Virus record (IMG/VR): IMGVR_UViG_3300033148_001466
Span: 1-33,335 of that record
Source: a virus
Reading direction: 5' to 3' (one strand)
DNA length: 33,335 nucleotides
Part shown: in pieces, positions 9,009-29,207 of the stretch
Position numbering within the stretch: the stretch's first letter is position 1
How the letters are laid out: each line of letters starts with the position of its first letter
Position numbers and translations under genes: made by a program
The notes under the pieces: model-generated
What the model saw: the letters and a program-made list of their open reading frames with translations, nothing else
Told to the model about the DNA's origin: nothing
Database searches by the model: none

Positions 9009-9383
9009 TTAAAATTGTTTAGGAAATAGATCATCCCATGTAAACCTAAAAGCTCCAACCATATGCCAGAAGAGTCCATCACTATACCATAATGAAGGTG
9101 CACAAGATTCGTAGTAAACTACATCATCTCCCCAACATTCAGAATCACCTTTATCAGTAATAGTTACAGAATTAACTCCATCAGCTTCACGAACTAAGAT
9201 ACTATAAAATCGTCCTCTGGCATCGGCTACTGGAGGTAAGGTAATAGTAATAGGACCAGTATCTCCATTTGCACTTGGACGTAGTACATAGTCCCTAGTG
9301 CTCATTTGATAGTCGGCCTCAGGATTATGATATTTGTCAACTACTTCCTTATCATGCTGGGCAAATTTATCCTCTAATGCCAT
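9009..9383 (-). CDS. Beta-rich head protein, short paralogue of the 292-aa protein
   Basis: This 124-aa protein is clearly related over its first 110 residues or so to the N-terminus of the protein at 9986-10864. Shared blocks include MALED.., AQHDK..VDK, TRDY, RPSA.G..G.I.ITLPPVA and GRFYSIL. The two look like a gene duplication, with this copy lacking the C-terminal 170 residues. GAGG precedes the ATG. Location between scaffold and capsid genes suggests a surface or decoration role. Confidence 0.75.
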   Translation of the reverse strand: MALEDKFAQHDKEVVDKYHNPEADYQMSTRDYVLRPSANGDTGPITITLPPVADARGRFYSILVREADGVNSVTITDKGDSECWGDDVVYYESCAPSLWYSDGLFWHMVGAFRFTWDDLFPKQF

Positions 9384-9398
9384 AACAAGCCTCGATTA

Positions 9399-9722
9399 TT
9401 ATATACTACCTACTATCTTTTCAAATAGTGAAATGTGTTGTTCGCTGAGCATAGACTTATCATTGAAATCTAATAGAACCTTCTGTGCTATACCAATAAC
9501 AGTTTCATTGATTTCTATATCAATTTCATCTATTGCTATAGCAGCTTCACGATTCCACTGTGCACTTTTACCTACCATTACAAAGTTAAGAGATTTCAAT
9601 TCAGTCTCATTAAAGGAAAGATTCTCACGAGCCTCCCTTACCAATTTCAATGTAGCAAAGTTATCCTTGTGAGTTGCAAGTATGTCACCTAATAAAATTC
9701 TCTCAAGTACATCTAATTTCAT
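9399..9722 (-). CDS. Small helical protein, function unknown
   Basis: This 107-aa, mostly alpha-helical, acidic protein (MKLDVLERILLGDILATHKD...) has GGAG nine bases upstream of its start. No Cys, metal or membrane motif is seen. It lies in the head-gene cluster, 15 nt before the 124-aa paralogue, and its 5' leader carries a conspicuous 10-bp inverted repeat (9753-9811). Confidence 0.65.
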   Translation of the reverse strand: MKLDVLERILLGDILATHKDNFATLKLVREARENLSFNETELKSLNFVMVGKSAQWNREAAIAIDEIDIEINETVIGIAQKVLLDFNDKSMLSEQHISLFEKIVGSI

Positions 9723-24261: not shown

Positions 24262-24855
24262 ATGAAAGAAGATAGTACGAAAGGGAAAGCGAGGATTATG
24301 CCAGTTAATTATAAAGGAGATGTGCTGGTGCAGGCGTGGATAGATGCTAGAAAGTTAGCAGTGTTAAGTATGTGGTTGGATAAAGGAGGATATGTCACGA
24401 GGCATTTAAGTGATTTAATTAAGTTTACAGTTGATGAGTTGGTTAATCAGTTAGTTGAAGCAGGGATAGTAGAGAAGATAGAGTTTAGTAAGGATGCTAG
24501 AGATTTGCTGATGATGAAGTATAGAGCTCAATTGAATCCAGGAGGGAGAGGAGAAAGGAATGCATTGCATAATCTACATTTAGATGAGTTGAGGAGAGGT
24601 AATGTTTATAGGGATGAGAGGAGTAAGACTGTTTATGGAACAGGAATACCTCAGGTATTTGATATAGATAAAGCTGTTAAGATATATAAAGAGAAGGAGA
24701 GGAATGAGAAGATAGAGGAACAGATAAAGAAGCAGACTATTGAAGCATTTAAGGATCCTAGGGTTGTAGAGGTAGATGATGAAATAAAGGTTGATGTGGA
24801 GAAGAATGTAGCTAAAGCGAAAGAGAATGATGAGAAGTTGAAAGATATGCCTTAG
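24262..24855 (+). CDS. Possible ribbon-helix-helix DNA-binding protein next to iterons
   Basis: This 197-aa basic protein has SD GGAGG. The N-terminal part reads as a strand (DVLVQAWID), helix (ARKLAVLSMWLDKGG) and second helix (HLSDLIKFTVDELVNQLVEA), similar to a ribbon-helix-helix fold. A basic middle (LLMMKYRAQLNPGGRGERN) and a long charged C-terminal helix (YKEKERNEKIEEQIKKQTIE) follow. Proteins of that fold bind tandem 7-8-bp repeats, and arrays of 8-bp units lie directly upstream, so autoregulation or an origin/partition role is likely. This is inference; the fold was not tested. Confidence 0.7.
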   Translation: MKEDSTKGKARIMPVNYKGDVLVQAWIDARKLAVLSMWLDKGGYVTRHLSDLIKFTVDELVNQLVEAGIVEKIEFSKDARDLLMMKYRAQLNPGGRGERNALHNLHLDELRRGNVYRDERSKTVYGTGIPQVFDIDKAVKIYKEKERNEKIEEQIKKQTIEAFKDPRVVEVDDEIKVDVEKNVAKAKENDEKLKDMP

Positions 24856-25092: not shown

Positions 25093-25269
25093 ATGTCTCA
25101 TATAGTTAAATTAGGTGCGAAAGCCATCACAGATTATATGATGGAAGATGTTGATGAGAAACATCGAAATGAATCATTAGCCTGGCACGCAGGATTTTAT
25201 GCAGGATTAAATGAAGCAGGCATGTTAACTCAGGACGAACTAGACGATCTTACAAATGAGTTGAGGTAG
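25093..25269 (+). CDS. 58-aa early protein
   Basis: This protein has SD GGAGATG nine bases or so before its ATG. The helical product (MSHIVKLGAKAITDYMMEDV, ESLAWHAGFYAGLNEAGML) ends with an acidic helix, TQDELDDLTNELR. The conserved-looking 'AWHAGFYAGLNEAG' segment suggests a small folded helical hairpin. It is the first gene after the promoter at 25000. Function not recognised. Confidence 0.7.
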   Translation: MSHIVKLGAKAITDYMMEDVDEKHRNESLAWHAGFYAGLNEAGMLTQDELDDLTNELR

Positions 25270-25332
25270 TGAATTGACCTAAGTATGTCATTAAACTACT
25301 TTAATTAAATAATGATAAAAGAGGTGAAACTA

Positions 25333-25569
25333 ATGAAAAAGCCTACAAGTAATTCAAAAGCACTAAGAGATTTGGCTGATGCAGAAGGATATGTTGATGT
25401 AATAAATATGTTAAATGATCTAATGACAGATCAACCTTTCTTATGCAATACTGTCTGTATGAATTGTGGAGCACAAGATAAAATGGAACCTGATCAAGGT
25501 GCAGGTTATTGTAGTGAATGTGGAATGAATGAAGTTAAACATGCCTTTGTGTTAGCAGAAGTAATTTAA
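25333..25569 (+). CDS. Zinc-ribbon early protein
   Basis: I place the start at ATG 25333 (MKKPTSNSKALRDLADAEGY, 78 aa) because GAGGTGAAACTA precedes it. A frame from 25312 has no SD. The C-terminal half is a C4 zinc ribbon (VCMNCGA, 17 residues, YCSECGM). The N-terminal helix contains VDVINMLNDLMTDQPF. Such small ribbons in phages may bind nucleic acid or host proteins; which of the two is not visible. Confidence 0.72.
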   Translation: MKKPTSNSKALRDLADAEGYVDVINMLNDLMTDQPFLCNTVCMNCGAQDKMEPDQGAGYCSECGMNEVKHAFVLAEVI

Positions 25570-25620
25570 TATGGAACTTTTAATAGTAACCCATAAGAAT
25601 ATAAACTATGAAACAATGCC

Positions 25621-25645
25621 AGTCAATTAATTAATTTAATTTACT
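25621..25645. repeat. 25-bp palindromic boundary repeat, copy 9
   Basis: AGTCAATTAA...TTAATTTACT, immediately left of the cassette-like island. It includes the stop of a doubtful 19-codon ORF (25571-25630). Confidence 0.9.
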
Positions 25646-25672
25646 AAAGATGCTACAATAGAAGGCTTATTT

Positions 25673-25918
25673 ATGGACATAGACGATTTATGCAAAGCAA
25701 GTAGTGCTGTTTATTTGGCAACAGACGAATTGGTCGCACAGAATTTACCTAAAAAATTAATATGGGCAGTAAAAGAGATAAAGTTGCTCCGTGGAATTAT
25801 CGCATCCCAACAAGCCGTTCAAGCGGATGCGCAAAATCTGTGCAAGTATTGTGAAGACATTGGTCGCAATGGTGAACATAGCTGGTTTTGTCGTAAATGC
25901 GGCGCACCGCTTAACTAA
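25673..25918 (+). CDS. Zinc-ribbon protein, first gene of cassette-like island
   Basis: This 81-aa protein has a weak SD (AGAAGG). The N-terminal 50 residues are helical (CKASSAVYLATDELVAQNLP, LLRGIIASQQAVQADAQN). The C-terminus is a zinc ribbon: LCKYCEDIGRNGEHSWFCRKCGAPLN. The stop TAA lies in GCTTAAC, the left part of an attC-like half site. Its more GC-rich, less AT-biased codon use differs from the flanking phage genes, as for a captured gene. Confidence 0.7.
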   Translation: MDIDDLCKASSAVYLATDELVAQNLPKKLIWAVKEIKLLRGIIASQQAVQADAQNLCKYCEDIGRNGEHSWFCRKCGAPLN

Positions 25919-25927
25919 TCGTTAGAC
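25903..25927 (+). mobile_element. attC-like site A (right half)
   Basis: ACCGCTTAAC, five spacer bases, then GTTAGAC (25921-25927), matching the L' and R' boxes (GTTRRRY) of integron attC sites. A full R'' partner upstream is not evident, so only the right half is supported. Confidence 0.55.
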
Positions 25928-25949
25928 TACCAATGAGGAGGATAGCAAA

Positions 25950-26288
25950 ATGATAGATATTGGATTTGAACGATTATCAGACGAGGTTGTTTTAATTGAC
26001 GGTAAATACTATTGCGAAATGTCGGATGAAGAAACGGCTGTATCTGTGTGGCTGCAACCTAACAGATGTCCTGCCTGCGGAGGAGAGGTAATATATTATC
26101 ATTCGTCCGTAACATCTGGAGATGGCATTACAAGAGTGGTCTGTAAAAAGAAGTGTCAAGGATGGAAAGTTTTGCAAGAGATAGATAGAAAGAAATCTAA
26201 CAAGACTGATCCAGCCAACCAAGTAACCTTGGCGGCTGATACATACATTATGCACAGGAGGTTTTATGAAAAAGAAAGACATACTTAA
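25950..26288 (+). CDS. Zinc-ribbon cassette protein reading through attC B
   Basis: This 112-aa protein has SD GAGGAGG. The core is a C4 ribbon (RCPACGGEVIYYHSSV, then VVCKKKCQGW). Unlike the usual case in which a cassette gene stops in the R'' box, this frame passes it as TCT-AAC-AAG and translates the whole attC (KTDPANQVTLAADTY). It stops inside the next gene, overlapping it by 23 nt. The last 30 residues or so are therefore probably not native. It is the gene of cassette 25921-26247. Function unknown. Confidence 0.68.
   Translation: MIDIGFERLSDEVVLIDGKYYCEMSDEETAVSVWLQPNRCPACGGEVIYYHSSVTSGDGITRVVCKKKCQGWKVLQEIDRKKSNKTDPANQVTLAADTYIMHRRFYEKERHT
26195..26253 (+). mobile_element. attC-like site B
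   Basis: R'' ATCTAAC (26195-26201), L'' TGATCCAGCC, a CCAAG/CTTGG inner stem, L' GGCTGATAC, and a degenerate R' ATTATGC (26247-26253). ATC(C)AGCC pairs with GGCTGAT leaving one extrahelical C, as in attC sites. The 50-bp core recurs at 26818. Confidence 0.68.
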
Positions 26289-26463
26289 AGCTATAGAAGG
26301 TATAAAAAATATTGCCGATGATGATGAAATGGCACATAGTGATGAAGATGCTTTGCGGGAAAGCTTTATAGAATATATAGCAACTCGCAAAGATTCTCTT
26401 GGCGAAAAAGCTCGGCTTGTTTTGACAACAAACAAAATTAACTTTGTACGATGGTATGCATAA
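26266..26463 (+). CDS. Small cassette-borne acidic protein
   Basis: This 65-aa protein has SD AGGAGG. The product (MKKKDILKAIEGIKNIADDD, HSDEDALRESFIEYIA, ARLVLTTNKINFVRWYA) is helical and ends in the conspicuous 'RWYA'. I recall similar small hypothetical proteins in phages and environmental DNA, without function. Its stop codon TAA is part of the R'' box GCATAAC of attC site C, the standard cassette arrangement. The cassette start TTATGCAC (from 26248) complements that R'' (TGCATAA). Confidence 0.78.
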   Translation: MKKKDILKAIEGIKNIADDDEMAHSDEDALRESFIEYIATRKDSLGEKARLVLTTNKINFVRWYA

Positions 26464-26518
26464 CCAGCTGTTACAGCCGACTTGCAGAAAGCTGAGCGGC
26501 TGAACTATATTGTTAGAC
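26458..26518 (+). mobile_element. attC-like site C (best match)
   Basis: R'' GCATAAC (26458-26464), L'' GTTACAGCCG, a short variable centre, L' CGGCTGAAC, five-base spacer, R' GTTAGAC (26512-26518). L'' and L' pair with one extra A, the extrahelical base expected of attC. The total length of 61 bp equals that of classical short attC sites. Confidence 0.82.
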
Positions 26519-26532
26519 CTAAAGGAGAGACA

Positions 26533-26571
26533 ATGGAAGAAGCATGGCCAGAGAAGTTAAAAGTTTGCTAA
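26533..26571 (+). CDS. Minimal 12-codon ORF in a near-empty cassette
   Basis: AAAGGAGAGACA precedes ATG and the frame reads MEEAWPEKLKVC, stopping in the R'' box of site D. The 22 bases 26521-26542 (SD plus first codons) are identical to the start of the 64-aa gene at 26881. This cassette may be a deletion derivative of that kind of gene. Whether the peptide is made or matters is doubtful. Confidence 0.35.
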   Translation: MEEAWPEKLKVC

Positions 26572-26623
26572 CCAGTGTTGCAGTGGAGCGAAAAAGCCCG
26601 CCCGCTGAAATTAATCGTTAGGA
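26566..26623 (+). mobile_element. attC-like site D
   Basis: R'' TGCTAAC (26566-26572), L'' region GTTGCAGTGGAGCG, L' region CGCCCGCTGAAAT, R' GTTAGGA (26617-26623). CAGTGG-GCG pairs with CGCCCGCTG (one wobble, one extrahelical A). Length 58 bp. Confidence 0.72.
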
Positions 26624-26629
26624 GTCAAT

Positions 26630-26821
26630 ATGCACACAAAGCCAATAGAAGATAGTGAAGGAAGATTCAATGGATGGACTGCAACTACAAGGGGGTGTCC
26701 AAAGTGCGAAGGTCTGGTACTGTTTCGCAGATGGGAGTCGCACTGTGGTGGATACATTGACTATCAATATCGGTGCCAGGTATGCGGACATTTGTGGTGG
26801 GTTGATGGACCGGACTCCTAA
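26630..26821 (+). CDS. Zinc-ribbon cassette protein
   Basis: This 63-aa protein takes its SD (AGGAG) from the R' box of the preceding attC. It contains GCPKCEGLVLFRRWESHCGG and YRCQVCGHLWWVDGPDS, a C4 zinc ribbon. The stop TAA is in the R'' box TCCTAAC of site E. The 10-bp sequence GTTAGGAGTC at the cassette start is the exact complement of GACTCCTAAC at its end, as expected for a complete cassette. Function unknown; DNA/RNA or protein binding is plausible. Confidence 0.75.
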   Translation: MHTKPIEDSEGRFNGWTATTRGCPKCEGLVLFRRWESHCGGYIDYQYRCQVCGHLWWVDGPDS

Positions 26822-26874
26822 CAAGACTGATCCAGCCAACCAAGTAACCTTGGCGGCTGATACACACGAAAGGA
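26816..26874 (+). mobile_element. attC-like site E
   Basis: R'' TCCTAAC (26816-26822), then the same core as site B with one mismatch over 50 bp (26818-26867 against 26197-26246). The R' position reads GAAAGGA (26868-26874) instead of GTTRRRY, so the right box is degenerate. Confidence 0.66.
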
Positions 26875-26880
26875 GAGACA

Positions 26881-27075
26881 ATGGAAGAAGATGTAACGTG
26901 TAATTTCTGTGGGAAGACATCTGCGAATGTTGATCACCTTGTAGGGGGGTCAGGCGTGTACATCTGTGGTGAATGTGTCCGCCTGTGCTCGAATGTAATG
27001 GAAGAGGCAAAGCAAGAACGAGATCAACGGCTTTACAGAGAAGCAATTTTCAAGGAATTCTGGGAAGGGGCTTAA
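26881..27075 (+). CDS. ClpX-type zinc-finger small protein
   Basis: This 64-aa protein has SD GGAGAG. Residues 7-42 match the zf-C4 domain found at the N-terminus of ClpX: CNFCGKTSANVDHLVGG, then VYICGECVRLCSNVMEE. In ClpX this domain dimerises and binds substrates and adaptors. Here it stands alone with a charged C-terminal helix, so it could interfere with or adapt a host Clp protease. That is inference. It is followed by the degraded attC-like site F. Confidence 0.8.
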   Translation: MEEDVTCNFCGKTSANVDHLVGGSGVYICGECVRLCSNVMEEAKQERDQRLYREAIFKEFWEGA

Positions 27076-27128
27076 TCCTTCTCCTTCCCTAAAGCCCGCA
27101 AAATAGCCTTCATCACAGGGCCAGCACT

Positions 27129-27148
27129 GCTTAACTATATTGTTAGGA
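27129..27148 (+). mobile_element. attC-like site F (right half)
   Basis: GCTTAAC, spacer, GTTAGGA (27142-27148). Its 14 bases AACTATATTGTTAG (27133-27146) equal those of site C (26503-26516). The left half is not clear; CTTCTCCTTCCC near 27077-27090 roughly complements the start of this cassette (GAAAGGAGAG). Confidence 0.5.
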
Positions 27149-27154
27149 GTACTA

Positions 27155-27307
27155 ATAACTAAAAAAGAGAAAAGAAAATATCAGGTAAGAGAGGAAGCCT
27201 GCTATAACAGGGATTGTTTTCTTCCATTTACTGGTAATGAAAGAAAGATTTGTAGGCTATACGAAATGGGCAGATGCCCAGAGAAATATAAACAGCGCAC
27301 TACTTAA
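27155..27307 (+). pseudogene. Cys-rich ORF with ATA where a start is expected
   Basis: After R' of site F an AGGAG SD is followed, five bases on, by ATA and an open frame of 50 codons (ITKKEKRKYQVREEACYNRD, then LYEMGRCPEKYKQRTT). Four cysteines are spaced CYNRDC and C..., about nine residues, C, like a small zinc-binding unit. No ATG, GTG or well-placed TTG lies at the start. Either the start mutated (ATG to ATA), which inactivates the gene, or initiation is non-standard. The frame overlaps the leader of the next gene. Confidence 0.45.
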
Positions 27308-27317
27308 GGAGAAAGCC

Positions 27318-27458
27318 ATGAAAAAGAAGATTGCTAGAAGATGGTTGAGGAAGATGAACTGGAAAATTTTGAAGTGTAATATTGGATTGGAGAGGATGTC
27401 TCCATCAGATAATAAGTACTATAGGAAATGTATGAGGGTTCTTCTTCATCATGAATAA
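27318..27458 (+). CDS. 46-aa basic protein
   Basis: I choose ATG 27318 (MKKKIARRWLRKMNWKILKC) because AAGGAG lies just upstream; the frame is open to 27237 but has no SD there. The product is strongly basic, with KKKIARRWLRK and YYRKCMRVLLHH. Nucleic-acid binding is possible from charge alone. It overlaps the following gene by 8 nt. Not recognised. Confidence 0.6.
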   Translation: MKKKIARRWLRKMNWKILKCNIGLERMSPSDNKYYRKCMRVLLHHE

Positions 27459-28967: not shown

Positions 28968-29207
28968 ATGAGATTTTACAGTATGACATTATTTATAGAT
29001 AAGATATTAATATCCCACCTTCAACATGATCGAAAAGATGGAAGTTGGCCTATCACATTAAGTATTAACAATAGTGATGAGTCTTACAGCAATCCTCAAA
29101 TAGATATATTTTTCAGTAATGAATCCTCTTACATAAATTTCAAGAATTCAGTAATTCAAGGTTATGAGAAATACCTTAGAAGTAAGAAGGAGTCTCATAA
29201 TGGCTAA
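28968..29207 (+). CDS. 79-aa early protein before ligase
   Basis: This protein has SD AAGGAG. The alpha/beta product has strands MRFYSMTLFIDKILIS and WPITLSINNSDESYSN and a helix, SYINFKNSVIQGYEKYL. It overlaps the ligase start by 8 nt. Function unknown. It begins the unit after repeat copy 10. Confidence 0.68.
   Translation: MRFYSMTLFIDKILISHLQHDRKDGSWPITLSINNSDESYSNPQIDIFFSNESSYINFKNSVIQGYEKYLRSKKESHNG

Follow-up and report, generated by a model that had tools for sequence, protein, structure and literature searches.

A probable, partly decayed CALIN within the early operon of an uncultivated tailed phage

Integrons are regarded as a bacterial gene-capture system spread by plasmids and transposons. 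Clusters of their attC recombination sites that lack a nearby integron integrase (CALINs) have also been described in phages: a screen of 10,705 phage genomes revealed 17 CALINs, among them CALINs of virulent phages, and five of the six phage attC sites tested recombined with attI1, as stated in the main text of Qi et al. 2023 (PMC9892861). The arrays reported there in virulent phages match the statement, in an earlier note on the DNA analysed here, that attC sites had been reported in some phage genomes. The present analysis concerns the IMG/VR virus record IMGVR_UViG_3300033148_001466, a metagenome contig of 33,335 bases, the whole of which is referred to below as the window. Genes for the head, portal and terminase lie on its minus strand (751-23554); the early genes follow on its plus strand from position 24262, with a DNA ligase at 29164. 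Within the early operon, at 25673-27150, tiny genes are separated by integron-type recombination sites, which suggests that the phage took up gene cassettes. We conclude that this stretch is very probably a CALIN, now partly decayed, that a virulent tailed phage has captured.

Recombination sites of the array

Sites were sought with a box-and-hairpin scan for R'' (RYYYAAC), an L'' containing a single extrahelical base, L' and R' (GTTRRRY). Plasmids carrying class 1 integrons, and phages for which attC sites have been reported, served for calibration. An earlier, looser box score proved too noisy in AT-rich DNA and was replaced by a stricter score together with a covariance model of our own, R1. 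The model was built from 20 compact attC sites, none of them from the window: three plasmid sites, three sites of phage TJE1, and the remainder from GC-rich viral contigs. As the training sites were chosen by the box-and-hairpin scan, the two tests are not fully independent, and the R1 E-values are rough. On the R1 scale, the experimentally tested TJE1 sites, which belong to the training set, score 44.8-51.9 bits, and held-out sites of Vibrio and Shewanella phages score about 20-25 bits. A scan against Rfam matched no family.

Up to E = 10, R1 finds three sites in the window (S2, S0 and S3), all of them in the array. They lie within 0.82 kb, each above threshold with E < 0.01; the class is defined by two or more attC sites no further than a few kilobases apart. 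Box scores of 19.9 for S2 and 19.6 for S0 are close to those of the reference sites of aadA (20.0) and blaVIM-2 (19.9); random sequence with the dinucleotide frequencies of the window yields 0.017 sites scoring at least 19.5 per 33 kb, against two within 0.7 kb in the window. The earlier note had described RYYYAAC and GTTRRRY boxes, paired L boxes and an extrahelical base for the sites in general. This description fits S0, S2 and S3, which contain the four ordered boxes with an extrahelical base in L'', and fails for S1 and S4, which lack R', and for S5, a half site.

Site S0 (25805-25927, plus strand) spans 123 bp and scores 36.8 bits (E = 4.7e-6). Its boxes are TCCCAAC (R''), GTT[C]AAGCGG (L'', extrahelical base in brackets), CCGCTTAAC (L') and GTTAGAC (R'), enclosing a 74-nt centre; the centre and the L' arm are formed by the 3' end of the gene at 25673-25918. 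Its right arm had previously been taken for an isolated right half at 25903. Folding of the bottom strand, proposed in the same note, gave a mixed outcome: the centroid structure of S0 has the attC form with an 11-bp stem, but the minimum-energy fold does not. The canonical site of the array is S2 (26458-26518, plus strand; 41.7 bits, E = 4.3e-7), with the boxes GCATAAC, GTT[A]CAGCCG, CGGCTGAAC and GTTAGAC; boxes and spacer lengths match the attC that follows blaVIM-2, and the extrahelical base differs. The boxes of S3 (26566-26623, plus strand) are TGCTAAC, TT[G]CAGTGG, CCGCTGAA and GTTAGGA; its R1 score is modest (22.6 bits, E = 0.0055), and its bottom strand by itself does not fold to the attC form. 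All three of these sites look still recombinogenic.

Four full sites had been proposed in all, of which those at 26458 and 26566 stand, while those at 26195 and 26816 have a broken R' box. The latter two are the degenerate attC-like sites S1 (26195-26253, plus strand; 11.5 bits with filters off) and S4 (26813-26875, plus strand; 5.7 bits with filters off). S1 combines R'' ATCTAAC and the hairpin CAGCC/GGCTG (z = -3.1) with ATTATGC in place of R', the G having been lost. S4 has the same hairpin (fold z = -3.1), a good R'' and a good L''/L' pair, and GAAAGGA instead of GTTRRRY. The two are copies of a single 50-nt hairpin, 98% identical and both below the R1 threshold. Their identity stops at the expected crossover point, and the sequences differ beyond it, as would be seen if one attC had been joined to a different cassette in each case. 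An exact search for their left arm in the viral and genome collections returned no match, and neither a source integron nor its integrase was found. The array ends on the right with S5 (27129-27150, plus strand; GCTTAACTATATTGTTAGGAGT), which is indeed an isolated right half, as the earlier note had it. The right arm of S5, GCTTAACTATATTGTTAG, is identical to that of S2 (26499) at 17 of 18 positions; it has no convincing left arm and no R1 match above 6.2 bits. The sole match to the S2/S5 right-arm pattern elsewhere lies within a long coding gene without attC and was judged to be due to chance.

Cassettes and the genes they encode

In an integron cassette, the R' side at the start has to be complementary to the R'' end of the same cassette. 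Over ten bases, own ends pair at 8 positions in C1, 8 in C2, 5 in C3 and 10 in C4, and foreign ends at 3-7. The complementary ends are TTATGCA/TGCATAA in C2 and GTTAGGAGTC/GACTCCTAAC in C4. The summed pairing of 31 was reached in none of 20,000 draws of GTT/AAC 10-mers from the window. Complementarity of the ends is thus found for C1, C2 and C4, and the pairing of C3 is no better than chance.

The gene at 25673-25918 (plus strand), 5' of the first attC, encodes 81 amino acids with a C-terminal Cys4 motif of Zn-ribbon type; it has no left cassette boundary and no homologue among the relatives. All genes of the array run in the same direction. Cassette C1 (25922-26247) carries an ORF at 25950-26288 for a Zn-ribbon-like protein of 112 amino acids with weak Lar-like similarity and no match in phages. 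This ORF runs through the S1 hairpin to 26288 and overlaps the start of C2, giving the protein a tail encoded by the attC. The ORF of C2 (26248-26512; ORF 26266-26463, 65 amino acids) belongs to phrog_10733 (E = 1.4e-12) and has relatives in a podovirus and a Bacillus phage, where they adjoin genes for replication and recombination; no attC matches were found in those regions. Cassette C3 (26513-26617) is 105 bp long, and its sole ORF, MEEAWPEKLKVC at 26533, preceded by a Shine-Dalgarno (SD) motif, has 12 codons. C4 (26618-26868) encodes a Zn-ribbon-like protein of 63 amino acids (26630-26821) with no match in viral contigs or phages, and the SD of this gene is the R' box itself, GTTAGGAG. C5 (26869-27142) lacks a recognisable R' and R'' and encodes a standalone ClpX C4-type zinc finger of 64 amino acids (26881-27075; PF06689, E = 2e-14). 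Standalone fingers of this type occur in phage early regions both here and at positions 3942-4160 of the relative L125, and are possible modulators of ClpXP adaptors.

The proteins of the gene at 25673, C1 and C4 have cysteine pairs resembling Zn ribbons, and their family matches are weak. A search of the cassette proteins against defence models gave no meaningful match. Two features described in the earlier note were borne out: SD motifs are present for C1-C5, and the stop codons of C2, C3 and C4 fall inside R'' of S2, S3 and S4, respectively. A 22-nt leader covering the SD and the first codons is identical in C3 (26521-26542) and C5 (26869-26890), suggesting a common cassette stock or recombination between cassettes.

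The locus in related phages and the origin of the array

Among named phages, Desulfofustis phage LS06-2018-MD01 comes nearest, with 45% terminase identity, and at least 56 contigs in IMG/VR carry related terminases with identities of up to 76-79%. A search for proteins of the tyrosine recombinase family PF00589 was negative in the 33-kb record, in agreement with the earlier statement that the window has no integrase, and in 27 related records, many of them 45-52 kb long. The lineage, an uncultivated group, therefore looks strictly lytic; the array lacks the intI of a complete integron, with no recognised attI, and has the integrase-free surroundings of a CALIN. Terminase matches in genome contigs were considered as a guide to the host. 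The four contigs carry conflicting MAG labels (bacterium, Nanohaloarchaea, Nitrospirae and WOR-3) and are probably mis-binned phage contigs, so no host was assigned. Two further contigs of the WOR-3-labelled MAG, which also includes a phage contig with a related terminase, each carry one attC-like site (37 and 32 bits).

The array lies between conserved early genes, in keeping with the early-region location given in the earlier note. Homologues in the loci L003-L085 are present for 24262-24855 (14 loci) and for the genes from 27451 onward, and the ORFs of 25093-27307 have none at E = 1e-3, except for one weak match to the right-border ORF at 27237-27458. A larger set of loci added weak matches to 25093-25269 in one locus and to the C5 finger in the early region of L125 (42%). 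The distance between the homologues of 24262 and 28430 varies from 1.8 to 7.8 kb across relatives, which marks the interval as a hypervariable zone. In one relative, about 300 bp with one small ORF separate the homologues of 24262 and 27451, against ~2.6 kb in the window; this arrangement shows roughly how the site would look if the array were missing. The GC content of the array is 43%, and that of the remaining early region is 35%; the array value is reached by 10% of equal-size windows in the whole record, and is thus not unusual.

In 1.05 Mb of relatives and a partly overlapping 0.52 Mb surrounding the 28430 homologues, R1 at E = 10 found nothing outside a single contig, IMGVR_UViG_3300013137_000003, and 34 whole records searched at E = 0.5 held no sites beyond those of the same contig. 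Its two attC-like sites (24.3 and 21.0 bits) lie 198 bp apart at 9147-9400, share the 20-mer TAACACAGAGTTGAGCAGTG, which was found in no other viral contig, and flank one small ORF between the 28430 homologue and the ligase, a different early-region position from that of the window array. The cassette ends are complementary at seven of seven positions (TTAGACA/TGTCTAA), and by the extrahelical base the sites are oriented opposite to the enclosed gene. The region differs between relatives, a comparison that the earlier note had proposed; one of them has another small cassette elsewhere in the early region, and the array itself occurs in none of them. By its generic pattern, the VIM-2-like attC class was also found in 11 IMG/VR viral contigs of 61-71% GC, with further attC-like sites mostly in arrays; these contigs provide context and are not relatives of the window phage. 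In one of them, with phage genes recognised by eye, the attC sites run against the likely genes.

The hairpins could be ordinary phage intercistronic elements, such as terminators or RNA-processing and stability hairpins, that resemble attC by chance; S1 and S4, strong hairpins without R', and the resemblance of the cassette genes to phage early genes speak for this. It is made very unlikely by the ordered R'', L'' with its extrahelical base, L' and R' at canonical spacings, by R1 E-values of 4e-7 and 5e-6, by the complementary cassette ends, and by relatives whose equally dense small genes show no such sites. The record is a metagenome contig known from assembled sequence alone, and the array might accordingly be an assembly chimera of a phage contig with a bacterial integron fragment. 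However, the genes flanking the array to its left and right come from a single phage family and retain its order, so that a chimera requires two independent false joins within ~1.5 kb; the array also matches the strand and spacing of the operon, and a second relative carries an attC pair of its own. We consider a chimera extremely improbable.

As a special case of a captured CALIN, the cassettes may be of phage-gene origin, small early genes having gained attC ends and been exchanged between phages and host integrons, in place of bacterial cassettes that came along as passengers. The other members of the C2 family in phage replication regions, the counterpart of C5 without attC in the early region of L125, and the abundance of small Zn-ribbon genes in the early regions of relatives are consistent with such an origin. 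It appears rather unlikely, given that the GC content of the array exceeds that of the surrounding early region, that C1 and C4 have no phage match, that such genes may also occur in bacterial integrons, and that no intermediate was seen. A wider proposal, to which we likewise give little credence, is that the virulent phages in question repeatedly make integron cassettes out of early-region genes, or acquire them as such, and that host integrases shuffle phage early genes for host takeover or counter-defence during lytic infection, making phages a source of cassettes and not only a vehicle.

The capture of a CALIN by a virulent phage, essentially the phage-borne island suggested in the earlier note, is borne out by the site anatomy with its three R1 sites, the cassette boundaries and their complementary ends, the lack of a tyrosine recombinase, the placement between conserved phage genes, and the absence of the array from nearly all relatives. 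The phage or its ancestor would have gained several small cassettes, most likely through a host-cell integron integrase that used folded single-stranded phage DNA as its substrate during replication, or alternatively through illegitimate recombination that brought in a fragment of a host array. Early transcription of the phage itself would most simply account for the reading of the cassettes, each from its own ribosome-binding site; they and may have been kept because they are read along with the early genes; any benefit to the phage would likewise be conjectural. As S1 and S4 have lost R' and S5 is a half site, the array appears partly frozen, and some residual mobility may persist. That phages move or collect cassettes, as also proposed earlier, is an inference: the array is unique to the window record among its relatives, and a single relative carries a different small cassette.

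Relation to described systems

Cassettes in a lytic lineage without a recombinase of its own indicate that entry into virulent phage genomes is possible, and transfer between cells may follow. The uncultivated phage group is distant from the reported CALIN phages, and the phage-type genes of the cassettes make the question of cassette origin more directly testable. CALINs in virulent phages have already been reported, and the window array is therefore a further case of a known phenomenon. The lineage is not named in the main text of PMC9892861, and the literature searched yielded no paper that deals with attC sites of viral contigs; as far as we could find, this is apparently the first report in the lineage.

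The phages of the Desulfofustis phage LS06-2018-MD01 group, including its IMG/VR relatives, share with the window their terminases and the conserved early genes as far as the ligase gene, but have no attC sites save for contig IMGVR_UViG_3300013137_000003. Compared with class 1 integron arrays, S2 has the boxes and spacers of the blaVIM-2 attC except for the extrahelical base, whereas the window array has no recognised intI, attI or Pc and no resistance genes. A close likeness is to the CALINs of the virulent phages TJE1, P12002L and H101/PH101, which, as described in the main text of PMC9892861, also consist of an attC cluster that has small cassettes but lacks an integrase; the TJE1 sites are detected by R1 as well. 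Those phages are unrelated to that of the window, and recombination with attI1 was demonstrated there, whereas the window sites are read from sequence. The window array further differs from the arrays described for them in that two of its sites are visibly decayed and its tiny cassettes are dominated by Zn-ribbon-like genes.
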